From the NCBI RefSeq assembly GCF_000524475.1, contig NZ_BAVQ01000018.1, positions 1 to 42,307 of the forward strand: a DNA stretch of 42,307 bases, in the 5' to 3' direction. Of the stretch, positions 5,950-28,382 are shown one piece after another (positions within the stretch are counted from its first letter, which is position 1; the number at the start of each line of letters is the position of its first letter). Made by a program: the position numbers and the translations under genes. The stretch is from Tomitella biformata AHU 1821 (GTDB lineage Bacteria; Actinomycetota; Actinomycetes; Mycobacteriales; Mycobacteriaceae). The notes beneath the pieces are model-generated. The model ran no database searches. It was not told the DNA's origin and saw nothing but the letters and a program-made list of their open reading frames with translations.

Positions 5950-7283
5950 CGGCCAGGCTGCCGCGTCGGGTCGCGGTCTTGTCGCTGCACACCTCGCCGC
6001 TGAGCCAGCCAGGGGTCGGCGACGCCGGCGGGATGAACGTGTATGTGCTGCAGACCGCGCAGGAGATGGCGCGTCGGGGCGTGGAGGTCGAGATCTTCAC
6101 CCGCGCGACGTCGTCGACCGCGCCGTCGATCCAGGAGGCCGGGCCCGGCGTGCTCGTGCGCAATGTGGCGGCGGGGCCGTTCGAGGGCCTGGACAAGCGG
6201 GACCTGCCGACGCAGCTGTGCGCGTTCACGGCCGGTGTGCTGCGGGCGGAGGCGCAGCATGCGCCCGGCTACTACGACGTGGTGCACTCGCACTACTGGC
6301 TCTCCGGCCAAGTCGGCTGGCTGGCCCGCGACCGCTGGGCCGTGCCGCTGGTGCACACCGCGCACACCCTCGCAGCCGTGAAGAACGCGGCGCTGGCGGC
6401 GGGGGACACCCCGGAGCCGATGACGCGGCAGATCGGCGAGCACCAGGTGGTGCAGGAGGCCGACAGGCTTATCGCCAACACGGAGGACGAGCGCCGCCAG
6501 CTCATCGAGATCCATGACGCGGACCCCGCGCGCATCGACGTGATCGCGCCCGGCGCGGACCTCGAGCGCTACCGCCCCGGCGACCGCGCGGCGGCCCGCC
6601 GCGAGCTGGGCCTGGACCCCGCCGCGACCTATGTGACGTTCGTCGGCCGGATCCAGCCGCTCAAAGCGCCCGACGTGCTGCTGCGGGCGGCCGCCGACCT
6701 CATCAACGCCGACCCCGGCTCCGCGCTGCGGGTGCTGGTGGTCGGGGGGCCGTCGGGCTCGGGCTTGGACCGTCCGGAGTCGCTCATCCGTCTCGCCGCG
6801 GAGCTGGGCGTCAGCGACCGGGTGACCTTCCTGCCGCCGCAGCCGCCGGAGCGGCTGGCGCTGGTCTACCGGGCGTCGGACCTCGTGGCGGTACCGAGCC
6901 ACTCGGAGTCCTTCGGGCTCGTCGCTATCGAGGCGCAGGCCTGCGGGGTGCCGGTGATCGCGGCGAATGTCGGCGGGCTGGGGGTGGCCGTGCGCGACGG
7001 CCACACCGGGCTGCTGGTCGACGGTCACCGCACGGCGGACTGGTCGCGGGCGCTGCGGACGCTGGTGGACAACCCGGGACTGCGCGCCGAGTACGCCGCG
7101 AACGCGCCACTGCACGCCGCGGACTTCTCCTGGCGACACACGGCCGACGGGCTGCTGGCCAGCTACTCGGTGGCGATGGCGCAACGGGCGGCGCAGGAGC
7201 GGCGGCTAGACCAGAAGCTGGCCGCCCGGCATGAGAGCGATGAACGACGCGAGCAGGACACGAGAGGGCGGGCGCGGGTATGA
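5946..7283 (+). CDS. mshA: D-inositol-3-phosphate glycosyltransferase
   Basis: 445 aa GT4-family enzyme. It joins UDP-GlcNAc to 1D-myo-inositol 3-phosphate, the first committed step of mycothiol, the main thiol of these bacteria. The N-terminal domain opens with [15 protein letters not shown] and [10 protein letters not shown], the UDP and inositol-phosphate binding loops of MshA. The C-terminal Rossmann domain contains [15 protein letters not shown] (about residues 234-248) and the E-x7-E donor motif in [15 protein letters not shown] (about residue 320). The last 40 residues are charged and family-variable. The start overlaps the upstream hydrolase stop, and its own stop overlaps the next gene start, so this is a three-gene translationally coupled string. 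Confidence 0.95.
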
Positions 7284-7882
7284 GCACAGCAGACACGATT
7301 GAGCGGTCCCTCGCACTGATCGAGGCGGCGCTCGCCGAGCACGGGCTCGAGTACAACCGGGTGGACGATGGCGATGGGGAGGGGCGCAGCATCGTCGCGG
7401 TCCTGCCTGGGGAGCGCAAGCTCAAGACCACCTGCCTGCTCACGGTGGGCCAGCACGGTGTGCGGGTCGAGGCGTTCGTGTGCCGGCACGCGGACGAGGA
7501 CACCGAGGCGGTCTATCGCTTCCTGCTGCGCCGCAACCGGCACCTGTTCGGGGTGCACTACACAATCGACAGGATCAACGACATCTACTTGGTGGGCCGC
7601 ATCTCCACCGAGTCGCTGACGGCAGCCGAGCTCGACCGGGTCCTCGGCCAGGTCCTGGAGGCGGCAGACGGGGATTTCAACACGATTCTCGAGATCGGCT
7701 TCCACACCTCCATCCGACGGGAATGGCGCTGGCGGACGGTGCGCGGAGAGTCGTTGCGGAACCTCGAGGCATTCGAGCATCTGGTCACGGACGAGGACCG
7801 GGAAGCAGTCGCACGGGGCCAGGTGATCCTGGACGACGCGCCTCCCGCCGCGGCCCCGGATCGGCCGGATCTGCCCGAGTGA
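7280..7882 (+). CDS. YbjN domain-containing protein
   Basis: 200 aa cytoplasmic protein of the YbjN / type III secretion chaperone-like superfamily, an alternating alpha-beta layout without catalytic motifs. Recognisable parts are the N-terminal helix [19 protein letters not shown], the strand pair [19 protein letters not shown] and the central segment [26 protein letters not shown]. It begins at an ATGA overlap with mshA; the same neighbour (Rv0487) follows mshA in mycobacteria. No function is established in actinobacteria. In enterobacteria YbjN is linked to stress and motility regulation, which cannot be transferred here. Confidence 0.85.
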
Positions 7883-7916
7883 CCGAAACTTCTGCTCGGC
7901 AGGGATAATGAAAGCT

Positions 7917-8676: not shown

Positions 8677-9858
8677 GTGCTCATCACGCTGATCCTGCTC
8701 CTGGGCCTAATCGTGGGCCTGGGGCTAGGCGTCGCCGTCGGCCCGATGGTCAGGTCGCGGCTGGACGAGCGGCGCTATCTGCGCAAGGGGCCGTCCCGCA
8801 CGCAGCTGCTCTCTATGGTGATCAACGACTCGCCCACCGGCATCGCCGTCGTGGATGGGGACCGGAATATCGTGCTGCACAACCGCCGGGCCGACGAGCT
8901 GGACCTGGTGCATGAGGGTGAGCTCGACGATCGCGGCTGGGCCGCCGCGCGCCAGGTGCTCGCCGAGCGGCGCAACTTGGACTTCGACCTCGTCGGCGAG
9001 GACCGCAAGCGCGGCCGATCCCTGTCCGTGCGCGGACAGGCTCGGCTGCTCGACGCCCGCGTCGGGCGCTACGCGGTGCTGTTCGCGGACGACGACTCCG
9101 AGACTGTTCGGATGGAGTCCGCGCGCCGCGATTTCGTCGCCAATGTCAGCCATGAGCTCAAGACCCCCGTCGGTGCCATGGGCCTGCTCGCGGAGGCGCT
9201 CTTAGAGTCCGCGGACGATCCGGACACCGTCCGGTACTTCGGCCAGAAGGTGCTCAACGAGTCGCACCGCCTGGGCGCCATGGTCACAGAGCTGATCGCG
9301 CTCTCCCGCCTGCAGGGCGCGGAGAAGCTGCCCAACCTGGCGGCGGTGTCGGTCGACAACGTGATCGCCGAGGCGCTGGGCAATGCCGCATTCACCGCGG
9401 CGGCCGCCGAGATCGAGATCACCACGGACGAGCCGAGTGGGCTGGAGGTGCTCGGTGACCGCATGCTGTTGGTCACCGCGCTGACGAACCTGATCTCCAA
9501 CGCGGTGAACTACTCGCCGCTGGGCTCGCCGGTGTCGGTGAGCCGCACACTCCGCCGTCGGCACGTGCAGATCAGCGTCACCGACCACGGCATCGGCATC
9601 GCGCCGAAATACCAGCAGCGCGTGTTCGAGCGCTTCTACCGGGTCGACAAGGCCCGTTCCCGGGCCACCGGCGGCACCGGTCTGGGATTGGCCATCGTCA
9701 AACACGTGGCACTGAACCACAATGGGCGGATCCGGCTGCGTAGCAAGCCGGGTGAGGGTTCCACCTTCACCATGGAGCTGCCCGTGCACAATCCTGCCCC
9801 GGACCATCCGGATCGGGGCACGCAAAATATCGGTCAGAGCATTCTGGGGCCATCGTGA
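8677..9858 (+). CDS. senX3: Two-component sensor histidine kinase SenX3
   Basis: 393 aa, GTG start. One N-terminal membrane segment (about residues 1-23) leads to a PAS-like sensor domain (about 45-140), then the HisKA dimerisation helix with phospho-accepting His159 in FVANVSHELKTPVGAMGLL. The HATPase_c domain shows the N box NLISNAVNYSP, DHGIGI and the G box GGTGLGLAIVKH. SenX3 senses phosphate limitation and, by reports in mycobacteria, oxygen or redox state, and phosphorylates RegX3. It starts 10 bp after gpmA. The spacer to regX3 is only 31 bp and lacks the repeat units found there in M. tuberculosis. Confidence 0.95.
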   Translation: MLITLILLLGLIVGLGLGVAVGPMVRSRLDERRYLRKGPSRTQLLSMVINDSPTGIAVVDGDRNIVLHNRRADELDLVHEGELDDRGWAAARQVLAERRNLDFDLVGEDRKRGRSLSVRGQARLLDARVGRYAVLFADDDSETVRMESARRDFVANVSHELKTPVGAMGLLAEALLESADDPDTVRYFGQKVLNESHRLGAMVTELIALSRLQGAEKLPNLAAVSVDNVIAEALGNAAFTAAAAEIEITTDEPSGLEVLGDRMLLVTALTNLISNAVNYSPLGSPVSVSRTLRRRHVQISVTDHGIGIAPKYQQRVFERFYRVDKARSRATGGTGLGLAIVKHVALNHNGRIRLRSKPGEGSTFTMELPVHNPAPDHPDRGTQNIGQSILGPS

Positions 9859-9889
9859 ACTGGCCCCGGGCAATGAGAGGACATCGCTG

Positions 9890-10579
9890 GTGACCCGTGT
9901 GTTGATTGTGGAGGACGAGCCCTCGCTTGCCGAGCCGCTTGCATTCCTGCTGCGCAAGGAGGGTTTCGAGGTCGCGGTCAGCGAGGACGGGCCCTCTGCT
10001 CTCGAGTCCTTCGAGCGCTCCGGCGCCGACATCGTCCTGCTGGACCTGATGCTGCCCGGAATGAGCGGCACCGAGGTCTGCAAACAGCTGCGGCTCAAGT
10101 CGAGCGTCCCGGTGATCATGGTCACCGCGCGCGACAGCGAGATCGACAAGGTGGTGGGCCTCGAGATCGGGGCGGACGATTATGTGACCAAGCCCTATTC
10201 CGCGCGCGAGTTGATCGCCCGGATCCGGGCGGTGCTGCGCCGCGGCGTCGAGTCGCTGGACGATGACGAGATGGCCGAGATGGTGCTCAGCTGTGGGCCC
10301 GTCGAGATGGACGTCGAGCGCCACGTCGTGACCGTCTCCCGGCAGCCGGTGATGATGCCGCTCAAGGAGTTCGAGCTGCTCGAGTTCCTGCTGCGCAACG
10401 CCGGCCGGGTGCTCACCCGCCAGCAGCTCATCGAGCGGGTGTGGGGCGCGGACTATGTGGGGGACACCAAGACCCTCGACGTGCACGTCAAGCGCCTGCG
10501 CGCGAAGGTCGAGGAGGACCCGGGCAAGCCCAAGCACCTGATCACGGTGCGCGGGCTGGGCTATAAACTCGAGGACTGA
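9890..10579 (+). CDS. regX3: Response regulator RegX3
   Basis: 229 aa OmpR/PhoB-type regulator. The receiver domain has the acidic pocket Glu8-Asp9, phospho-acceptor Asp52 (LLDLMLPGMSG) and Lys101 (VTKPYS). The C-terminal winged helix includes LKEFELLEFLLRNAGRVLTR and the recognition region TLDVHVKRLRAKVE. RegX3 activates phosphate-starvation genes such as the pst and phoA types in relatives. The GTG at 9890 is preceded by GAGAGG (9875-9880) at good spacing, and places TRVLIVEDEP at the expected N-terminus. The open frame extends upstream into senX3 but is not coding there. A strong hairpin follows the gene. Confidence 0.96.
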   Translation: MTRVLIVEDEPSLAEPLAFLLRKEGFEVAVSEDGPSALESFERSGADIVLLDLMLPGMSGTEVCKQLRLKSSVPVIMVTARDSEIDKVVGLEIGADDYVTKPYSARELIARIRAVLRRGVESLDDDEMAEMVLSCGPVEMDVERHVVTVSRQPVMMPLKEFELLEFLLRNAGRVLTRQQLIERVWGADYVGDTKTLDVHVKRLRAKVEEDPGKPKHLITVRGLGYKLED

Positions 10580-19893: not shown

Positions 19894-20886
19894 CTAGTCC
19901 TCCTGGCGCCGGCTCAGCACTGCGGCAGCGGCGCCGCCGACAGCACCCAGCGCGAGGGCGGTCGGCACCCCGATCTTGGCGGCCTTGCGCCCCGTGCGGA
20001 AGTCGTGGATCTCCCAGCCGCGGTTGCGGGCGACCTCGCGCAAGTCCGCATCGGGGTTCACGGCGACGGCGGTGCCCACCGCGGTGAGCATGGGGACGTC
20101 GTTGTGGCTGTCGGAGTACGCGGTGCAGCGCTTGAGGTCGAAGCCCTCGCGGACGGCCAGGGCGCGGACGGCGTGCGCCTTGCCGAGCCCGTGCAGGATG
20201 TCGCCGACGAGGCGACCGGTGAACTTGCCGTCCTCGCTCTCCACAACAGTCCCGAGCGCGCCGGTCAGGCCGAGCCGCTTGGCGATCACCTGGGCCAGGA
20301 TCAGGGGGGTTGCGGTGACGAGCCAGACCTGCTGGCCGGCGTCGAGGTGCGCCTGGGCCAGGGCCATAGTGCCCGCCCAGACCTTGTCGGCGATGACCTC
20401 GTCGTAGATGTCCTCACCGAGGCTGCTGAACTCCTCGGTCTCGCGGCCGGCGATGAAGGACAATGCCTTCTCCTTGCCGCTCGCGACGTCCTCGCTGCTC
20501 TCTTTGCCGGTGACGCGGAATTTGATCTGCTGCCAGCCGAACTGGGCCATGTCGGAGACGGCAATGTACTTGCGGGCGGCCAGGCCGCGGGCGAAGTGGA
20601 TGATCGAGGCGCCCTGGACCATAGTGTTGTCCACGTCGAAGAAAGCGGCGGCGGTCAAGTCCGGGGTGACGGGGGCCAGGGGGGCGAGGGCTCCGGGGCC
20701 CTCGGCGACCAGGAGCGCATGGGCTGCGTCGGCACTGGCCTCGCCAGCCTCGTTCTGCCGTAGTGCGGACGGGGTGGGGCCCAGTGGATTGCGTCCGTTC
20801 AGGCGGCCGATGCGGCGGCGGCCGGACTCGAATACACGCGAGCCGGTCAACCTGCTCGGCGTCGGTTCCTCTGACTGTTCTGGCAC
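19894..20886 (-). CDS. HAD-IB family phosphatase (SerB-like)
   Basis: 330 aa. After a variable, polar N-terminal 75 residues, the HAD nucleophile motif [11 protein letters not shown] (DxDxT) appears. Then come a cap region, motif II in VWLVTATP, a motif III lysine in [10 protein letters not shown] and motif IV in [11 protein letters not shown]. The C-terminus ([18 protein letters not shown]) is hydrophobic and could anchor the protein. HAD-IB members are phosphoserine phosphatase-like, but substrates vary; the mycobacterial neighbour is called SerB1 (Rv0505c) without full proof. The GTG at 20886 has GGAGG (minus strand) at good spacing and fits better than an upstream ATG at 20928. Confidence 0.85.
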
Positions 20887-21147
20887 ATGGACCTCCTGCT
20901 TGAGTGTGCCGGTGGACTGCGAGAACACTCCAACCCTAACTGTCCGGGCGCTGCGATGGACCTACCGCCCGCCCGTCTCTGCGAGCCCTCCGCCCGTTGT
21001 GATTTGCATCTCCGGAAATCAGGCGTCGGGAGGTGTCGGCTTCCGGGCTGCTGGTGGCCGCACGGACGCGGTGGGGGATACGGGATGATGGGGTTCGACC
21101 GCGCCGTCTGGGCGGGCGCCGCGAGCGTGGAGGAAAGAGGCCAAGTG

Positions 21148-21405
21148 ATGGGCAACCGTCGGGCGATCATGTTGCTCTCGAGGGCAGGCTGCAGCAGCTG
21201 TGTGGATGCGGATGCGTCACTTCTGTTGCTGTGCAAGGACTTTGACGTCGACTACTCGGTGATTGATGTCGACGCGGCGGCGGGGGAGAACCCGGAGTTG
21301 CGGGCCGAATTTGGCGATCGGCTGCCAGTTGTGCTCTTGGACGGCCGCGAGCACAGTTATTGGGAGGTCGACGAGGACCGATTGCGGGCGGACTTGGCAC
21401 AGTGA
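21148..21405 (+). CDS. Glutaredoxin-like protein with CSSC motif
   Basis: 85 aa. It begins MGNRRAIMLLSRAGCSSCVDAD: a thioredoxin-fold strand followed by a Cys-Ser-Ser-Cys redox site, then the cis-proline region RLPVVLLDGRE of the glutaredoxin fold. It is a DUF836/glutaredoxin-family member expected to handle thiol-disulfide exchange in the cytoplasm, perhaps with mycothiol. The ATG at 21148 (or the adjacent GTG at 21145) is served by AAAGAGG (21134-21140). It lies 184 bp before rex and is the equivalent of Rv0508. Its placement beside a redox-sensing repressor is suggestive. Confidence 0.87.
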   Translation: MGNRRAIMLLSRAGCSSCVDADASLLLLCKDFDVDYSVIDVDAAAGENPELRAEFGDRLPVVLLDGREHSYWEVDEDRLRADLAQ

Positions 21406-21476
21406 ACGCCGCCCACGGCGTGTACCCCCCATACGTCAGCGGGAGGACTACCGTGTAGTGGGGTACCTCGTCAACT

Positions 21477-21505
21477 TTGTGCAAGTCTTCACAAGCGGTT
21501 ACCGT
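21477..21505 (+). promoter_or_regulatory. Rex operator overlapping the rex-hem promoter
   Basis: TTGTGCAAGTCTTCACAA (21477-21494) differs at one base from the Rex consensus TTGTGAA-N4-TTCACAA. TTGTGC (21477-21482) and TACCGT (21500-21505) are 17 bases apart, forming a plausible -35/-10 pair, so bound Rex would block polymerase. The rex start is 95 bp downstream of the operator. Autoregulation is the known arrangement for this family. Confidence 0.8.
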
Positions 21506-21589
21506 GGGGAGAGCCAAGCGCTGGGCAGGGCCGATATATGGGTCTGTCCAGTCGCCCAATCGCCTCGGCTGCACTAAGGAGCCTTCGAC

Positions 21590-22363
21590 GTGACGGATCG
21601 ACACCATGTGGGGGGACCTATGTCCCCGCAGTCCGGTGTCTCCTCGGCCGATGCCGCATCGTCAGGCCAGCCTGCTGTCGCCAATCGTCGCACAGCTCCT
21701 CACCCGGGCCTTGTCCGGGATATCCCGAAGGCGACGGTCGGCAGGCTCGCCAGCTATCTCCGCGCGCTCAGCGCGCTTGCGGATGACGGGATCGCGAGGG
21801 TCTCCAGCGAGCAGTTGGCGGACGCCACCGCGGTCGGCTCGGCGACGCTGCGCAAAGACCTCTCCTTCTTGGGCTCGCAGGGCGTGCGCGGGGTGGGCTA
21901 CGAGGTCGCGAGCTTGACGGAGTCGATCGAGTCCGCTCTCGGCCTGGACCTGGGCCACCGTGTGGTGCTCGTGGGGGTCGGCAACTTAGGCCTCGCGCTG
22001 ACGGGGCACGGCGGCTTCGGCCGGCGCGGGTTCACCGTCGTCGCGCTGTTCGACATCGACCCGGCGAAGGTCGGGACCACGGTGCGCGGCCTGCGGGTGC
22101 GGCATCTGGACGAGCTTCCGGAGGCCACCGCGGATCCGGAGAGCATTATCGGGGTCATCGCGACCCCGCCCGACGCCGCGCAGCAGGCGTGCGACCGACT
22201 GGTGGCAGCCGGGGTGCAGAGCATCCTGAACTTCGCCCCTGTGGTTTTGAAGGTTCCGGAGAATATCGAGATGCGCAGGGTGGATCTGGCAGTGGAGATG
22301 CAGGTGCTTTCATTCGGGCTGGCCCGAAATTCGCGACGTGACACGGCGACGGTGACGCGATGA
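21590..22363 (+). CDS. rex: Redox-sensing transcriptional repressor Rex
   Basis: 257 aa. A 35-residue variable tail is followed by a winged helix ([19 protein letters not shown] and [21 protein letters not shown], about residues 45-103) and a Rossmann domain with [13 protein letters not shown] and [11 protein letters not shown] that binds NADH. It ends with a C-terminal domain-swap helix. Rex leaves DNA when NADH rises relative to NAD+, derepressing respiratory and haem genes. GTG at 21590 is preceded by AAGGAG (21576-21581). The stop overlaps hemA in ATGA. The rex-hemACD order is known from Streptomyces; from memory, M. tuberculosis lacks rex here. Confidence 0.94.
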
Positions 22364-23715
22364 GCGTCCTACTGGTGGGGATCTCCCACCGAAGCGCGCC
22401 AGTCTCGGTCCTCGAGAAGGCCGCGGTGTCCGAGGCGGACCGGCCCAAACTGCTCGACGCGTTGCTGCGGTCCGCGCACGTGTCCGAGGCGATGCTGGTC
22501 TCCACCTGCAACCGCATCGAGATATACGCCGTCGTCGACGCCTTCCACGGCGCCCTCGCCGAGGTGACCGAGCTGTTCGCGGACCACTCAGAGATGGACG
22601 TGCAGACGCTGACCCCGCACCTGTATGTGCGCTACAGCGAGGCCGCGGTGGAGCACCTGTTCACTGTCGCCTCCGGCCTGGACTCGATGGTCGTGGGCGA
22701 GCAGCAGATCCTCGGCCAGATCCGCTCGGCCTACGCCGCGTCGGACGCGCAGCAGGTGGCGGGCACCGCGATCCACGAGCTGGCGCAGAAGGCGTTGCGC
22801 GTGGGCAAGCGCGTGCACACCGAAACCGGCATCGACTCCGCCGGCGCGTCCGTCGTGTCGGTGGCGCTCGAGCGCGCCGCGCAGATCCTGACCGGCGAGC
22901 GCGAGCTGTCAGGGCTCCAGGGTCGCCGCGCGGTGGTGCTCGGCGCCGGCGCGATGGGCGGATTGTCCGTCGCGAACCTGATTCGCGCGGGCATCGGCGA
23001 GCTGCTTGTCGTGAACCGCACCGCGGAGCACGCAGCCCGGCTGGCGGAGACCGCCGCGGAGGCCGGTGTGCCGTCCCGCGCGCTGGGGATGGACGAGCTG
23101 GCCAACGCGATGAAGGACGCCGATGTCGTGGTGACCTGCACGGGCGCGGTCGGCGCTGTGGTCACCCTCGCGGATGTGCATCTCGCGCTGGCGGCCCGCA
23201 CGGTCGACGGCCCGATGGTGTTCTGCGACCTCGGCCTGCCGCGCGATGTCGATGCGGCCGTGCTCGGCCTGCCGTCGGTGGTCGTGCTGGACATGGAGGC
23301 ACTGCAGAAGGACCCGGGCGCCGGGGCCGCGCAGGCCGACGCGGAGGCGGCCGCCGCGATCGTCGCGGACGAAGTGCTCGCCTACCTGAACTTGCAGCGC
23401 GCCGCCGAGGTCACGCCCACCGTGACCGCGCTGCGCCAGCGTGCCGCCGAGGTGGTCCAGGCGGAGCTGCTGCGCCTGGAGTCCAAGCTGCCCCAGCTCG
23501 GCGAGTCGGAGCGCTCCGAGGTGGAGCGCACCGTACGCCGGGTTGTGGACAAGCTGCTGCACGCGCCGACGGTGCGCGTCAAGCAGTTGGCGGCGGCCCC
23601 CGGCGGCGGTTCCTACGCCGAGGCGCTGCGTGAGTTGTTCGAGTTGCGGCCCGGGGTCACCTCGGCAGTCGCCACCTCCACCGAGAATGTTGAGCAAGAG
23701 GAGACACTGCAGTGA
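22360..23715 (+). CDS. hemA: Glutamyl-tRNA reductase
   Basis: 451 aa. It reduces glutamyl-tRNA(Glu) to glutamate-1-semialdehyde with NADPH, the committed step of C5 haem synthesis. The N-terminal catalytic domain has [15 protein letters not shown] and the nucleophile Cys50 in STCNRIEIY. It is followed by [20 protein letters not shown], the NADPH-binding motif VLGAGAMGG and a C-terminal dimerisation spine rich in Ala/Glu helices. It is the first enzyme in the coupled rex-hemA-hemC chain; the next start codon overlaps its stop in GTGA. Its length is typical. Confidence 0.96.
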
Positions 23716-24662
23716 CCGCAAACCCGATCCGGGTGGGTACCAGGGGCAGTGTGCTCGCGACGACACAGGCCGGCACGATCCGCGATGCGTTGATCGCCGC
23801 CGGGCACCCGGCGGAGCTGGTCATCATCTCCACGTCTGGCGACCGCTCGATGTCGCCGGTGCAGACCATCGGCGTCGGCGTGTTCACCGCAGAGCTGCGC
23901 GATGCGCTGCTCGATGACCGCGTCGACATCGCCGTGCACTCCTATAAGGACATGCCCACCGCGCCGCAGCCGGGCCTGACGATCGCCGCCGTGCCGCCGC
24001 GCGAGGACTCCCGCGACGCGCTCGTGGCCCGTGACGGGCTCGTGCTGGGCGAGCTGCCGGCCGGCTCCACCGTCGGCACCTCGGCCCCGCGCCGCGTCGC
24101 GCAGCTGCGGGCGCTGGGCCTGGGCCTGGATGTGGTGCCGCTGCGCGGCAACCTCGAGCGCCGGCTCGGCCGCGTCGACAGCGGTGAGCTTGACGCGATC
24201 ATCCTGGCGCGCGCCGGGTTGGACCGCACCGACCGCACGCACCGGATCACCGAGACCCTCGACCCGCTGCAGATGCTGCCGGCACCCGCGCAGGGCGCGC
24301 TCGCCCTTGAGTGCCGCACCTCCGATGTGGACATGGTGGCGCTGCTGCGCACGCTCGACGATCCCGCCTCGCACTCCGCGGTCATCGCGGAGCGCGCCGT
24401 GCTCGCCGAGCTCGAGGCGGGCTGCAGCGCACCCGTCGGCGCGCTGGCAGAGGTGGTCGAGTCCACCGACGCCGACGGCAATCCGATCGACGAGATCTCC
24501 ATCCGCGGCTGCGCCGCCGCGCTCGACGGCTCCGAGGTGCTGCGCGCATCCCGCGTCGGCCCCGTCGAGGATGCCGAGGCGCTGGGCCGGGCGGTGGCCG
24601 TGGAACTGATCGAGAGGGGCGCCGCGGACTTGATGCGCGAGCCGGAGGGACATCACTCATGA
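23712..24662 (+). CDS. hemC: Hydroxymethylbilane synthase (porphobilinogen deaminase)
   Basis: 316 aa. It polymerises four porphobilinogens into hydroxymethylbilane. The N-terminus [17 protein letters not shown], catalytic Asp80 in HSYKDMPT, the arginine-rich cofactor region [12 protein letters not shown] and [13 protein letters not shown] are all present. Cys238 in [12 protein letters not shown] attaches the dipyrromethane cofactor. GTG at 23712 overlaps the hemA stop. Its own stop overlaps an ATG at 24659 that opens a 27-codon reading frame leading to the next gene. Confidence 0.96.
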
Positions 24663-24742
24663 GGAAACCGCCGGCGGGTCCGCCTGCCGCCACCACATTG
24701 CTTATCCAACGAACCGCACTTGCACTGGAGATTGACCGATGA
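24659..24742 (+). CDS. Candidate 27-residue small ORF between hemC and hemD
   Basis: It reads [17 protein letters not shown] then ten more residues to EIDR. The ATG overlaps the hemC stop (ATGA), and the TGA overlaps the ATG of the next gene (ATGA). GGAGGGA (24644-24650) lies eight bases upstream, a better ribosome binding site than most in this window. The peptide is Pro/Ala-rich, then mildly hydrophobic. It could be a translational bridge that carries ribosomes from hemC to hemD, or a real small protein. No homologue is known to me; it may also be chance. Confidence 0.5.
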
Positions 24743-26304
24743 GTCGCGCACGTAAGACACCCCCCGGCCGGATCCTGTTCGTGGGCTCGGGGCCCGGTGA
24801 TCCAGCCCTGCTCACCCTCCGTGCCCGCGATATCTTGGCCCAGGCCACGGTCGCGTTCACCGACTCCGACGTCGACGCCGGCGTCCTAGAGCTCGTCGGC
24901 GTCGATCTTGAGGCCGACCCCGAGACGGGCGAGCGTCCCGGCGAGGTCCGCCCCGCACTGGGCGAGCCCACCGATGTCGCAAAGGCCCTGGTCGCCGAGG
25001 CCAAGCTGGGCCACGACGTCGTGCGCCTAGTCTCCGGGGACCCGATGACCACGGACTCCGTGATCGCCGAGCTCACCGCCATCGCCCGCACTCAGGTGCA
25101 GTTCGAGGCCGTTCCCGGCTTGCCCGTGGGCAGCGCCGTCCCGGCCTACGCCGGGATGCCGCTGGGCTCGAGCCACACTGAGATCGACGTGCGCGGCGAC
25201 GTGAACTGGGCCGCACTGGCCGCCGCCCCCGGGCCCCTGGTCCTCCAGGCCGCGTCCGGGCACCTCGCCGAGACCGCCAGCGCGCTGGTCGAGAACGGCA
25301 TGGCCCCGCAGACGCCCGCCGCGATCACCGTGCGCGGCACGACGCGCCAGCAGCGGACCGTCGAGGCGACCCTGGCCACGCTCAACGAGGTCGGCTCCGA
25401 GCTCGTCGGCCCGCTCGTCGTCACCGTCGGCAAGGTCGTCTCGCAGCGCCACAAGATGTCCTGGTGGGAGTCGCGTTCGCTGTACGGCTGGACCGTGCTG
25501 GTGCCGCGCACCCGCGACCAGGCGGCAGTGATGAGCCGCCGCCTCGTCACGCACGGCGCCATCCCCAAAGAGGTGCCGACGATCTCCGTCGAGCCGCCCC
25601 GCAGCCCTGCCCAGATGGAGCGCGCGGTCAAGGGCCTCGTGGACGGCCGCTACCAGTGGGTCGTGTTCACCTCGACGAACGCCGTCAAGGCCGTGTGGGA
25701 GAAGTTCCAGGAGTTCGGCCTGGACGCCCGCGCGTTCTCCGGCGTGAAGATCGCCTGTGTCGGCCGCGCGACCGCCGAGAGCGTCCGCGCGTTCGGCATC
25801 GAGCCCGAGATGCTGCCGAAGCCGACGGAGCAGACCAGCGAGGGCCTGCTCGCCGAGTTCCCGCCATTCGACGACATCCTGGACCCCGTCAATCGGGTCC
25901 TGCTGCCCCGCGCGGATATCGCCACGGAGACCATCGCCGACGGCCTGCGCGAGCGTGGCTGGGAGATCGAGGACGTCACCGCGTACCGCACCGTCCGGGC
26001 CGCCCCGCCGCCCGCCGAGACCCGCGAGATGATCAAGACCGGCGGCTTCGACGCGGTGTGCTTCACCTCCTCGTCCACCGTCCGGAACCTGGTCGGCATC
26101 GCCGGCAAGCCGCACGCCCGCACGATCGTCGCCTGCATTGGCCCGAAAACGGCCGAGACGGCGCGCGAGTTCGGCCTCCGCGTGGACGTGCAGCCCGAGA
26201 TCGCCGAGATCGGCCCGCTAGTTGAGGCGCTCGCCGAGCACGCCGCGCGGCTCCGAGCCGAAGGCGCCTTGCCACCCCCGCGCAAGAAGTCCCGCCGACG
26301 CTAA
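24739..26304 (+). CDS. hemD: Bifunctional uroporphyrinogen-III C-methyltransferase / uroporphyrinogen-III synthase
   Basis: 521 aa fusion. The N-terminal part (about residues 10-245) is a tetrapyrrole methylase: ILFVGSGPGDPALLTLRARDIL, LVSGDPMTTDSV, and PGLPVGSAVPAYAGMPL. The C-terminal part (about residues 250-510) is a HemD domain: GWTVLVPRTRDQAAVMSRRL, WVVFTSTNAVKAV, LPRADIA and CFTSSSTVRNL. HemD closes hydroxymethylbilane into uroporphyrinogen III; the methylase would start the siroheme/B12 branch. The methylase domain here shows a loosely conserved set of motifs, so its activity should not be assumed. Such fusions are usual in actinobacteria. It ends with a basic RKKSRRR tail. The start overlaps the small ORF. 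Confidence 0.92.
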   Translation: MSRARKTPPGRILFVGSGPGDPALLTLRARDILAQATVAFTDSDVDAGVLELVGVDLEADPETGERPGEVRPALGEPTDVAKALVAEAKLGHDVVRLVSGDPMTTDSVIAELTAIARTQVQFEAVPGLPVGSAVPAYAGMPLGSSHTEIDVRGDVNWAALAAAPGPLVLQAASGHLAETASALVENGMAPQTPAAITVRGTTRQQRTVEATLATLNEVGSELVGPLVVTVGKVVSQRHKMSWWESRSLYGWTVLVPRTRDQAAVMSRRLVTHGAIPKEVPTISVEPPRSPAQMERAVKGLVDGRYQWVVFTSTNAVKAVWEKFQEFGLDARAFSGVKIACVGRATAESVRAFGIEPEMLPKPTEQTSEGLLAEFPPFDDILDPVNRVLLPRADIATETIADGLRERGWEIEDVTAYRTVRAAPPPAETREMIKTGGFDAVCFTSSSTVRNLVGIAGKPHARTIVACIGPKTAETAREFGLRVDVQPEIAEIGPLVEALAEHAARLRAEGALPPPRKKSRRR

Positions 26305-26310
26305 GACCAC

Positions 26311-26345
26311 CACTAACGGCCGCCACCTCGTGGCGGCCGTTAGTG
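26311..26345 (+). terminator. Perfect 16-bp hairpin after hemD
   Basis: Positions 26311-26326 are the exact reverse complement of 26330-26345, with a CTC loop. It starts six bases after the hemD stop. Only a weak T-containing tail follows. It should separate the rex-hemACD transcript from hemB, at least partly. Confidence 0.8.
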
Positions 26346-26383
26346 TCTTGGCAGGTCTAGTTGCTCACCAGGAGGCTGTAACA

Positions 26384-27370
26384 ATGTTCCCGGATCATCG
26401 CCCACGCCGTTTGCGGACCACCCCGGCTATGCGCAGGCTGGTCGCCGAGACCAGCCTGGAGCCGCGACAGCTGGTGCTGCCGATGTTTGTCGCCGACGAC
26501 ATCAGCGCGCCGCGGCCCATCTCCTCGCTGCCCGGCGTTGTACAACACACCCAGGAATCGCTGCTCGTCGCCGCAGCGGAGGCCATCGAGGCCGGGGTCG
26601 GGGGACTGATGCTCTTCGGCGTGCCCGGGCATCGGGACGCCGTCGGCTCCGGCGCCGACGACCCGGACGGCGTGCTCAACCAGGCCCTCGCGTCGCTGCG
26701 CGCCGAGTTCGGCGATGACACCGTGCTGATGGCCGACACCTGCCTCGACGAGTTCACCGACCACGGGCACTGCGGCGTGCTCAGCGTCGACGCGAATGGT
26801 CGCCAGCGCATCGACAATGACGCGACGCTGCAGCGCTACGTCGACATGGCCCTCGCACAGGCCGAGGCCGGGGCGCACGTGCTCGGGCCCAGCGGCATGA
26901 TGGACGGCCAGGTAGGCGCCATCCGCGCGGCCCTCGACGCCGCAGGCTTCCGGCACACCTCGATCCTGGCGTACTCCGCGAAGTACGCGTCGGCGCTGTA
27001 CGGCCCGTTCCGTGAGGCTGTCGGCTCCACTCTGACCGGCGACCGCAAGACCTATCAGCAGGACGCCGCCAACCGGCGCGAGTCCATCCGCGAGGTCTCC
27101 CTGGATCTGGCCGAGGGCGCGGACATGGTGATGGTCAAGCCCGCGTCGCTGTACCTGGATGTGCTGCGCGAGGTTGCGGACATCTCCGACGTGCCGGTGG
27201 CCGCCTATCAGGTGTCCGGCGAGTACGCGATGATCTGCGCGGCCGCGGAGAAGGGCTGGATCGACAAGGACGCGATGATCCTGGAGTCGCTCACCTCGAT
27301 CCGCCGTGCGGGCGCGGACATTGTGCTGACCTACTGGGCCGCCGAAGTCGCCGCCCGACTCTCCCGATGA
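26384..27370 (+). CDS. hemB: Delta-aminolevulinic acid dehydratase (porphobilinogen synthase)
   Basis: 328 aa. It condenses two aminolevulinate molecules into porphobilinogen. The two Schiff-base lysines are Lys200 (ILAYSAKYAS) and Lys252 (MVMVKPASLY). The metal-site loop is DTCLDEFTDHGHCGV, with Cys120 and Cys130 but Asp at 122, so only two of the three cysteines of the zinc-type site remain. AGGAGG (26370-26375) lies eight bases before the ATG, a perfect Shine-Dalgarno. The frame is open upstream but that part crosses the terminator. It heads a second transcript with three small membrane protein genes. Confidence 0.96.
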   Translation: MFPDHRPRRLRTTPAMRRLVAETSLEPRQLVLPMFVADDISAPRPISSLPGVVQHTQESLLVAAAEAIEAGVGGLMLFGVPGHRDAVGSGADDPDGVLNQALASLRAEFGDDTVLMADTCLDEFTDHGHCGVLSVDANGRQRIDNDATLQRYVDMALAQAEAGAHVLGPSGMMDGQVGAIRAALDAAGFRHTSILAYSAKYASALYGPFREAVGSTLTGDRKTYQQDAANRRESIREVSLDLAEGADMVMVKPASLYLDVLREVADISDVPVAAYQVSGEYAMICAAAEKGWIDKDAMILESLTSIRRAGADIVLTYWAAEVAARLSR

Positions 27371-27396
27371 GGGCGGGCGCCGATTACGGTGTGGGC

Positions 27397-27897
27397 ATGG
27401 ATCAGGCGAAGCCCGAGAAGCCGGTTGATATCCGCACGGCATTTGAGCTCTGGTGCGCCGTCGCGGTCCTGGGCGTGTTCGCGTCGATTGCCCTGGTCTT
27501 CGTGACGCTCGGGGACCGGGCCGCATACACCGAGGAGCTGACCCGCCGACTCAACGAGATGGACCCCAGTGGCGCAGCCACGGTGGACATCTCGTTGGCG
27601 TTCAATCTGGGGCTGGCCATCGCCGGCCTTTTCGGGGTGGCTATCGCCGTCCTCGTCTACTTTCTGGCGCGCCAACTTCGGGCCGGAAAGGGTTGGGCAC
27701 GCTTGCTTCTGACCGGCGCCACAGCGTTCGTGGTGGTCTCGGCCATCAGCTCGTTTGCCGCCGAGCGGCAGTCGGGCATCGCCCCGATGGCGCTGGCGAT
27801 CCTGATGATCCTGCAGGCTGTGCTGGCGGTGGGCGCGACGGTGTTGTCGCATCGGCGTGACGCGAGCGTGTACCTCGCCAAGCGGCCCACCCCATGA
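27397..27897 (+). CDS. Conserved membrane protein (Rv0513-like)
   Basis: 166 aa with four predicted membrane helices: about residues 21-42, 68-90, 102-122 and 128-148. The loop between helices one and two holds a polar stretch TEELTRRLNEMDPSG. No catalytic motif is seen. Two starts are possible: an ATG at 27367 overlapping the hemB stop, and the ATG at 27397 used here. TACGGT lies six bases before the latter, which would allow a leaderless transcript. By synteny it matches the membrane protein that follows hemB in mycobacteria. Function unknown. Confidence 0.7.
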   Translation: MDQAKPEKPVDIRTAFELWCAVAVLGVFASIALVFVTLGDRAAYTEELTRRLNEMDPSGAATVDISLAFNLGLAIAGLFGVAIAVLVYFLARQLRAGKGWARLLLTGATAFVVVSAISSFAAERQSGIAPMALAILMILQAVLAVGATVLSHRRDASVYLAKRPTP

Positions 27898-28382
27898 GCG
27901 AGGTGCTCTACACGGAGCCCGGCGCCCGGTGGCGGGTGCTCCTGCTCGCCCCGATCTTCGCGGTGGTGGGTCTGGTCTCCGACGCGCTGCTCGGCAGCGG
28001 AATGCGCTGGTTCGTGTGGGTGCTCGCCGCGCTCATCCTCGGGGCTATCGGCTCCTGGATGGTGCACGCGGCCCGGCAGCACACCAGCGTCTCACTCACG
28101 CGCGAGGTGCTCGTCCAGGGCCAGGACGAGTTGCCGACGAGCGACATCGTGAAGGTTTTCCCCGCGGCCCCGCGCAATCGCACCCGCGACGATCCGGCCG
28201 AGCACTGGGAGTCGGCCCGCGCGCTAGGCGAGATCTCCCGGATCCCGCGTGGCCGGCGAGGGGTCGGCATCCAATTGCGCCGGGGTAACCTCACGCAGGC
28301 CTGGGCCAAGGACGACGATGCATTGCGGACTGCGCTGCAGGCGATCCTGGACGCCCGGAGAAAGGGGTCGCGACCCACATGA
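27894..28382 (+). CDS. DUF3093-like small membrane protein
   Basis: 162 aa. Two membrane helices at about residues 15-33 and 38-57 precede a cytoplasmic domain with VSLTREVLVQGQDELPTSDI and the short motif WAKDDDALRTALQAIL near the end. The layout (two helices, then a basic soluble domain that looks PH-like) resembles DUF3093 proteins, an assignment made by eye. It is coupled to the previous gene by ATGA and to the next one by ATGA. Function unknown. Confidence 0.65.
   Translation: MSEVLYTEPGARWRVLLLAPIFAVVGLVSDALLGSGMRWFVWVLAALILGAIGSWMVHAARQHTSVSLTREVLVQGQDELPTSDIVKVFPAAPRNRTRDDPAEHWESARALGEISRIPRGRRGVGIQLRRGNLTQAWAKDDDALRTALQAILDARRKGSRPT

Follow-up and report, generated by a model that had tools for sequence, protein, structure and literature searches.

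Known systems of coupling between neighboring genes

In engineered bicistronic designs, a short ORF placed at the 5′ end delivers ribosomes to a downstream start codon. Leaders of this biotechnological kind are mentioned in a review that also carries the proposal that a short ORF may exist solely to deliver ribosomes, with MIRUs cited as a natural case (PMC12548453). The distances that a terminated ribosome tolerates are known from native gene pairs, six in all, from E. coli and H. volcanii, in which little restart is left once the gap reaches about 20 nt; for the E. coli pairs, the cost is 40–80% at +14 nt and (almost) complete at +38 nt (PMC10666635). The same source lists −4, −1, and −8 as the commonest distances between genes. 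Two small ORFs that influence a following gene also merit comparison. The 8-codon mgtQ, in the mgtC–mgtB intergenic region, promotes translation of the next gene (PMC8092293), and a two-codon minigene of axe-txe influences in cis how the gene behind it is translated, with frame and distance both mattering (PMC8708949). Here, we analyze a 27-codon ORF, termed the bridge ORF, that lies between hemC and hemD and overlaps both.

Gene order and overlaps in the window

The window is the whole stretch of DNA that was analyzed, 42,307 nt from Tomitella biformata AHU 1821 (contig NZ_BAVQ01000018.1). Its relevant features are as follows.

21590..22363, + strand: rex (redox-sensing repressor), at the head of the overlapping chain, with a putative start codon (NCBIfam NF003992 Rex, E 1.5e-97)
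22360..23715, + strand: hemA (glutamyl-tRNA reductase), ORF with Pfam/NCBIfam support
23712..24662, + strand: hemC (hydroxymethylbilane synthase), ORF (TIGR00212, E 1.3e-88)
24644..24650, + strand: GGAGGGA, candidate ribosome binding site for the bridge ORF, its strength not conserved among relatives (Shine–Dalgarno [SD] survey of 97 junctions)
24659..24742, + strand: bridge ORF, 27 codons plus TGA, with 4-nt overlaps with the hemC stop and the hemD start, frame kept in relatives
24727..24730, + strand: GGAG, ribosome binding site of hemD within the end of the bridge ORF (sequence; SD survey of 97 junctions)
24739..26304, + strand: hemD (methylase–uroporphyrinogen-III synthase fusion; Pfam TP_methylase and HEM4)
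26312..26344, + strand: perfect hairpin after hemD, 15 bp with a 3-nt loop, terminator-like but without a U run (fold z-score −6.0)
26384..27370, + strand: hemB, after a 79-nt gap behind hemD

All junctions from rex to hemD are 4-nt stop/start overlaps (ATGA, GTGA, ATGA, and ATGA). The original prediction, which placed a 27-codon ORF with ATGA overlaps at both ends at 24659–24742, was base-for-base correct on re-reading. The hemC stop (TGA, 24660–24662) overlaps the bridge ATG (24659–24661) as ATGA, the bridge TGA (24740–24742) overlaps the hemD ATG at 24739 (ATGA, 24739–24742), and the predicted 76-nt gap filled by the ORF runs from 24663 to 24738. The GGAGGGA eight bases before the bridge ATG was likewise confirmed, as were the two 4-nt overlaps said to join rex–hemA–hemC (ATGA at 22360–22363 and GTGA at 23712–23715). 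For reference, the hemC–hemD junction of E. coli K-12 is an annotated 4-nt overlap.

A DNA query spanning 24580–24800 returned the self-match alone (E ≤ 0.001), so no second copy of the bridge region was found in its own genome. Elsewhere in the window, mini-ORFs that overlap putative long ORFs at both ends occur at 7879–7908, 9855–9893, 6514–6543 (+), and 2487–2570 (−).

A leader peptide or attenuator, a promoter, a terminator, and an RNA element within the gap were each considered and rejected, given the lack of an Rfam match (20000–28000), the lack of a promoter- or terminator-like site (24400–26500), and a weak fold. The gap RNA folds less than its shuffles (z +2.0) and hence offers no hint of a structure in need of opening.

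The remaining junctions of the chain were surveyed at 80 named loci plus the window, with any in-frame start accepted, so that the counts describe available rather than proven starts. At rex–hemA (75 testable), 59 junctions have an in-frame start overlapping the rex stop and 16 are bridged; at hemA–hemC (79 testable), 69 have an overlapping in-frame start and 10 are bridged; at hemC–hemD (81 testable), 34 have an overlapping start, 44 are bridged, and 3 have TAA followed at once by ATG. Open gaps number zero at each of these three junctions. hemD–hemB, testable within 400 nt at 38 loci, includes 0 bridged junctions, 28 open ones, and 10 with an in-frame start near the hemD stop. A stricter rule, which equated the nearest in-frame start with the hemC start, had given 0 of 38 hemA–hemC junctions bridged and 28 with an alternative overlapping start; it was superseded by the any-start rule. 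At three loci (L019, L027, and L036), a frame of four codons (VIRP or VIFP) that overlaps both neighbors fills a rex–hemA gap of 7 nt. With no open gap from rex to hemD, an unbridged hemD–hemB junction, and a hairpin behind hemD, the coupled unit seems to be rex–hemA–hemC–hemD. The hairpin, which was not among the matches of a consensus terminator scan of 24400–26500, is the probable end of this unit.

Distribution of bridges among relatives

Junctions were collected from the best 80 of 464 loci of a protein search, from genus, order, and family searches, and from 120 fetched stretches, which together gave 274 readable hemC–hemD junctions (210 distinct) as a sample of the order's genomes. Rows were excluded as duplicates (L001, L002, and L007–L009), for having no hemC–hemD pair (L006 and L010–L015), for failure to find hemC in the stretch (L175–L177, L182–L184, L233, and L255), for an unread hemC end (L254), or as the window itself (L096). 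Bridges concentrate in what we call the bridged group, comprising 15 genera of the family (g1, g3, g4, g8, g9, g11, g92, g94, g96, g97, g100, and g102–g105) plus Rhodococcus (including Prescottella, and with the Rhodococcus isolates L035 and L042 counted here), Rhodococcoides, Nocardia, and Speluncibacter.

The 191 junctions read in the bridged group comprise 132 with a bridge and 59 in which the two genes overlap or directly abut (gap of −4 in 53, −1 in 3, and 0 in 3), with no open one. Every gap longer than 15 nt is bridged (132/132, with a few places counted twice). The four readable members of the window's genus have gaps of 76, 109, 115, and 109 nt, all bridged with ATGA at both ends by ORFs of 27, 38, 40, and 38 codons; on the stretch read from the fifth member (G004, L233), no hemC was found.

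Other genera show 39 unbridged gaps of at least 30 nt and a single bridged one (L174; 17 codons, gap 46 nt), and a shorter gap is bridged at L148 (9 codons, gap 22 nt). Double counting within the 132 and the 39 involves L004/L210 and L122/L181; some species are also present in both collections. At five of the 39 unbridged gaps (L114–L116, L126, and L227), hemD could also begin in frame on the hemC stop, which makes the hemD start calls at those loci uncertain. Since these other genera manage without a bridge, it is not essential to the operon as such. The frame-breaking indels and stop codons that the original prediction had named as evidence against the ORF are absent from the junctions read in the bridged genera; outside them, gaps are mostly unbridged.

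Conservation of frame and overlaps

For the analysis of geometry, we assembled 97 distinct bridged junctions without exact repeats, leaving aside three from other genera with short GTG or TTG frames (L163, L174, and L148). Only two geometries occur. Twenty-two of the 97 have a 4-nt overlap (ATGA) between the hemC stop and the start of the bridge, and the 10 gap lengths observed are all 1 mod 3. The other 75 begin 5 nt before the hemC stop, giving an 8-nt overlap (ATGNN plus stop; ATGNNTGA or ATGNNTAG in nearly all); among them, 24 gap lengths occur (36–207 nt), each of them 0 mod 3. In total, 34 different gap lengths (36–207 nt) are each in the frame that their overlap needs, with bridges ranging from 15 to 72 codons. 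The starts are ATG (94), GTG (2), and TTG (1), whereas at the other end the stop is TGA and overlaps the hemD ATG in 97/97. An SD match of at least four bases precedes hemD at every one of the 97 junctions; before the bridge start, a four-base match is absent in 20.

Across 34 representatives less than 65% identical to one another, the bridge frame contains 0 stops in 946 codons, compared with 32/954 and 15/980 in the other forward frames (Fisher one-sided 6e-9); the reverse frames hold 10, 16, and 6 stops in 946–980 codons. On a HemC+HemD tree, at least 41 length changes are needed among 105 bridged rows (a quick method with many open forks), and every bridge length that arises keeps the frame. 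When random 1–2-nt indels were simulated, some bridge was left in 1,471 of 7,000 trials (35 representatives, L163 included). The frame, the two overlaps, and their conservation are direct observations, and they hold without conservation of the peptide.

Individual gaps could be open by chance, as GC-rich DNA has few stops, and this is what dinucleotide shuffling of the gap interior indicates (hemC, hemD, and the 18 nt preceding hemD were left unchanged). The bridge frame of the window stays open in 80% of 400 shuffles, and gaps across relatives stay open in 62% on average (range, 22–100%). The window ORF is therefore not significant by itself, and its significance comes from the relatives alone, in the sum over lineages. 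That sum leaves an accidental open frame between two genes extremely improbable as an explanation, given 34 gap lengths that are all in frame, the complete absence of stops from the bridge frame, and a product of shuffle probabilities of about 1e-8 over 35 dissimilar gaps.

Constraint on the encoded peptide

Selection on the peptide was gauged by pN/pS for pairs of equal length and at least 70% identity, omitting the 18 nt that hold the hemD SD. The groups with gap lengths of 64, 102, 105, 108, and 165 nt were too divergent for this measure (mean identity, 0.33–0.45). Excluding Rhodococcoides and the Nocardia repeats, 58 pairs from 42 loci gave 1.02 for the bridge frame and 0.91 and 0.61 for the other frames. 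For hemD in the same 58 pairs, the value is 0.08, from codon alignments of the first 120 codons; an ungapped version had given 0.04–0.92, too high in 6 of 17 groups. The GC content at the three codon positions is similarly flat in bridges (0.66/0.65/0.67 versus 0.79/0.52/0.83 in hemD), and in the window it is 0.63/0.74/0.58 for the bridge versus 0.80/0.53/0.81 for hemD. Within the window's genus, two of the four readable members are equal in bridge length and differ by five substitutions (few for pN/pS), and the tail, LALEIDR or LALTLEIER, is the sole part common to all four. Tails such as ALENNR, ALENYR, or ALEIDR are also the commonest motif shared among bridges overall, and the ..LE.. within them is conserved because it translates the hemD ribosome binding site. 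The window peptide has 0 Pfam and 0 NCBIfam matches.

In bridged genera, with Rhodococcoides and the Nocardia repeats left aside, the peptide looks unselected by these pooled comparisons. Of the three signs of a gene that the original prediction proposed to seek in relatives, the frame is conserved, length varies, and synonymous bias is not seen in the pooled pairs.

Rhodococcoides departs from this pattern. Its 159-nt group (14 distinct junctions) has a pN/pS of 0.25, versus about 1.20–1.21 and 2.32–2.36 in the other frames, and its variable columns fall 17/10/35 by codon position. The core IAT-RLIPKRG-AT is invariant in 11 aligned rows. A profile of this form picked out 29 genomes among 301. 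In 27 the match was strong (g4, 26; g104, 1), and by coordinates every strong match lies directly before hemD. The 56-amino-acid form has no known family in Pfam or NCBIfam and is predicted to lack structure (mean pLDDT, 58.5). Forms of 56–72 amino acids with this core occur in Rhodococcoides and one further genus (L068:3334–3501; equivalents at L032, L035, L038, L040, L042, L067, L070, L076, L080, L017, L036, and L223, the last with V for L). The Rhodococcoides 56-amino-acid form is under amino acid-level constraint, and one lineage thus probably has a real small protein there; nothing suggests the same for the window.

In natural variants, deletion or fusion preserves the continuity of the path. 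At L065, L262, and L264, most of the bridge is gone, and hemC reads in frame into its tail (..KKALENNR, then ATGA), while the near kin L067 and L070 carry a full 56-codon bridge with the same tail. Judged by their sequences, the three are natural deletions that retain the hemD overlap. The bridge at L103 has 15 codons only, and at L227, in one genus, the hemD reading frame extends upstream without interruption as far as an ATG on the hemC stop.

These data bear on a more specific possibility, that the product of the bridge is a functional small protein, synthesized in parallel with HemC and HemD, that takes part in tetrapyrrole synthesis or acts on it. The Rhodococcoides form, with its pN/pS of 0.25, invariant core, and strong profile matches confined to the position before hemD, is what one would expect of such a protein, and the Nocardia repeat bridges described below lean the same way (pN/pS 0.56). 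Elsewhere, however, the pooled pN/pS of 1.02, lengths from 15 to 72 codons, and a common part limited to the SD-bearing tail argue against it, as do the fusions of hemC that remove most of the bridge, the 15 codons left at L103, and the prediction of no structure for even the conserved form. The window and its congeners, moreover, do not match the Rhodococcoides profile. We regard this explanation as very improbable for the bridge in general, and a functional small protein in the window genome is not supported by its sequence. The original prediction had offered a small protein of tetrapyrrole synthesis or a coupling peptide. The former finds no support in the window (no family, sharing of the tail only, and flat codon GC), and the latter appears well supported, as frame and overlaps are kept while length and sequence drift.

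Repeat-derived bridges in Nocardia

The usual arrangement in Nocardia is a hemC that terminates directly on hemD (..PMENNR and similar, then ATGA). On several separate branches, a repeat flanked by ATGA on either side, commonly starting MSERSER, has been inserted, and the path is kept each time. Nocardia bridges are mostly MSERSER...SEV.A-like repeats of this type, found at several junctions and doubled in frame in L064. They yield a pN/pS of 0.56, versus 1.59 and 0.93 in the other frames (16 pairs), and thus lean toward amino acid constraint, so that freedom of the peptide is not uniform.

The dispersed repeat is about 60–80 nt long, starts with ATGAGCGAGCG or similar, and ends on ATGA. Its 20-nt head was found at 11 places in five of the six Nocardia genomes searched. 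Of the eight readable places, four are short ORFs whose stop overlaps the start of an ORF of 120–258 codons, and four read in frame into a long ORF. Loci with the repeat include hemC–hemD junctions (L064, L061, L073, L094, L112, and L113), rex–hemA junctions (L048, L050, and L074), and other places (L297, L298, L301, and L305). By sequence, the repeat resembles a ready-made coupled ORF between or before genes, in the manner of MIRUs. A description of it was not found among the titles and abstract openings searched.

Such repeats raise the question of whether every bridge is the relic of a MIRU-type mobile element inserted at an ATGA junction, its geometry an unselected by-product of insertion. 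The prevalence of repeats with ATGA at both ends among Nocardia bridges, their presence at several junctions, the doubling in L064, and their recurrence elsewhere in Nocardia genomes all fit this origin. For the window region, though, no second copy was found in its own genome; the start overlap of Rhodococcus bridges is ATGNN plus stop, with no duplicated ATGA; and the frame is kept in bridges with no remaining sequence similarity, which insertion alone does not explain. As a general account, it is decidedly unlikely, and for the window bridge, a MIRU relic is already unlikely on these grounds.

A proposed translational bridge

The reading we favor, with a probability of roughly 80%, is that the bridge is a coupling ORF, translated and selected for continuity of translation and not for its product. 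Ribosomes finishing hemC would restart at the overlapping bridge ATG, read through 27 codons whose content is immaterial, and stop on the start codon of hemD, next to its ribosome binding site, to begin anew there. A gap of 76 nt would be too long for a terminated ribosome, and the bridge would convert it into two 4-nt overlaps, so that hemD output is proposed to stay tied to hemC output. By analogy with the measured gene pairs, gaps of 36–207 nt would break coupling, and two overlaps in series would restore it. The tie should matter because hydroxymethylbilane, the unstable product of HemC (PMC8698207), closes by itself into isomer I without HemD. We infer translation of the bridge ORF, a benefit from restart rather than from shielding against Rho, and enzyme balance as the underlying cause.

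The same translated bridge might instead benefit the cell by covering the mRNA against Rho termination between hemC and hemD, with restart at hemD incidental. Rho loads onto untranslated RNA (review PMC12548453), the rule of no open gap spans rex–hemA–hemC–hemD, and in the window a strong hairpin follows hemD. Shielding, however, needs no precise 4- or 8-nt overlaps, yet these are present in 97/97 distinct bridged junctions, and open gaps of similar length are tolerated in other genera. We consider protection from Rho an unlikely main benefit and retain coupling by restart as the preferred reading.

More broadly, we lean toward the existence of a class of "frame-only" coupling genes, in which the frame and end overlaps would be strongly selected and the peptide free, and which, in this group of genera, would keep rex–hemA–hemC–hemD a single ribosome path whatever is inserted or deleted; one of them would have acquired or kept a protein function in Rhodococcoides. 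Bridges of this kind amount to an evolutionary experiment on whether ribosomes need one continuous path or are able to scan over a gap. Some forty changes in length have been retained, all by multiples of three, with the peptide mostly free, which matches the prediction of no scanning. The case also carries a warning for annotation: a small ORF conserved in synteny and frame need not encode a functional peptide, even if Rhodococcoides is one lineage where the small ORF probably does encode one.

Comparison with known systems

Neither a hemC–hemD bridge nor a vertically kept, single-copy bridge with a free peptide and a fixed frame was found described in the literature searched, a search that covered titles and abstract openings and lay outside most subscription papers. 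The nearest relations are the systems introduced above. Among small ORFs acting on a following gene, mgtQ (PMC8092293) is likewise intergenic and inside an operon; it differs in freeing a sequestered ribosome binding site and in needing particular acidic codons, whereas no such structure was found for the bridge, and no codons outside the SD tail are common to bridges. The axe-txe minigene (PMC8708949) differs in having two codons, a proposed action through mRNA stability, and no bridging of gene ends.

Bicistronic leaders share with the bridge the delivery of ribosomes, as proposed for the latter; the bridge differs from them in being natural and internal. Coupling by termination and reinitiation is a further relation. 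Both ends of the bridge are standard overlaps by the classes of that work (PMC10666635), with ATGA as the 4-nt and ATGNN plus stop as the 8-nt class. Unlike the pairs described there, the partner here is an ORF without a conserved product, set between two enzymes and thereby placing two couplings in series.

MIRU ORFs are alike too, being short ORFs that restore a spacing of −4 after an insert has separated two genes, and the Nocardia bridges look to be of this kind. By contrast, the window bridge is single copy with no repeat, and the bridges of its relatives change length yet stay in frame. Spaced at −4 nt from the next gene but without dispersed copies, it may thus work like a MIRU ORF without being one. 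We rate coupling by termination and reinitiation and MIRU ORFs as known, and the inherited, sequence-free bridge as a new form within that known kind.
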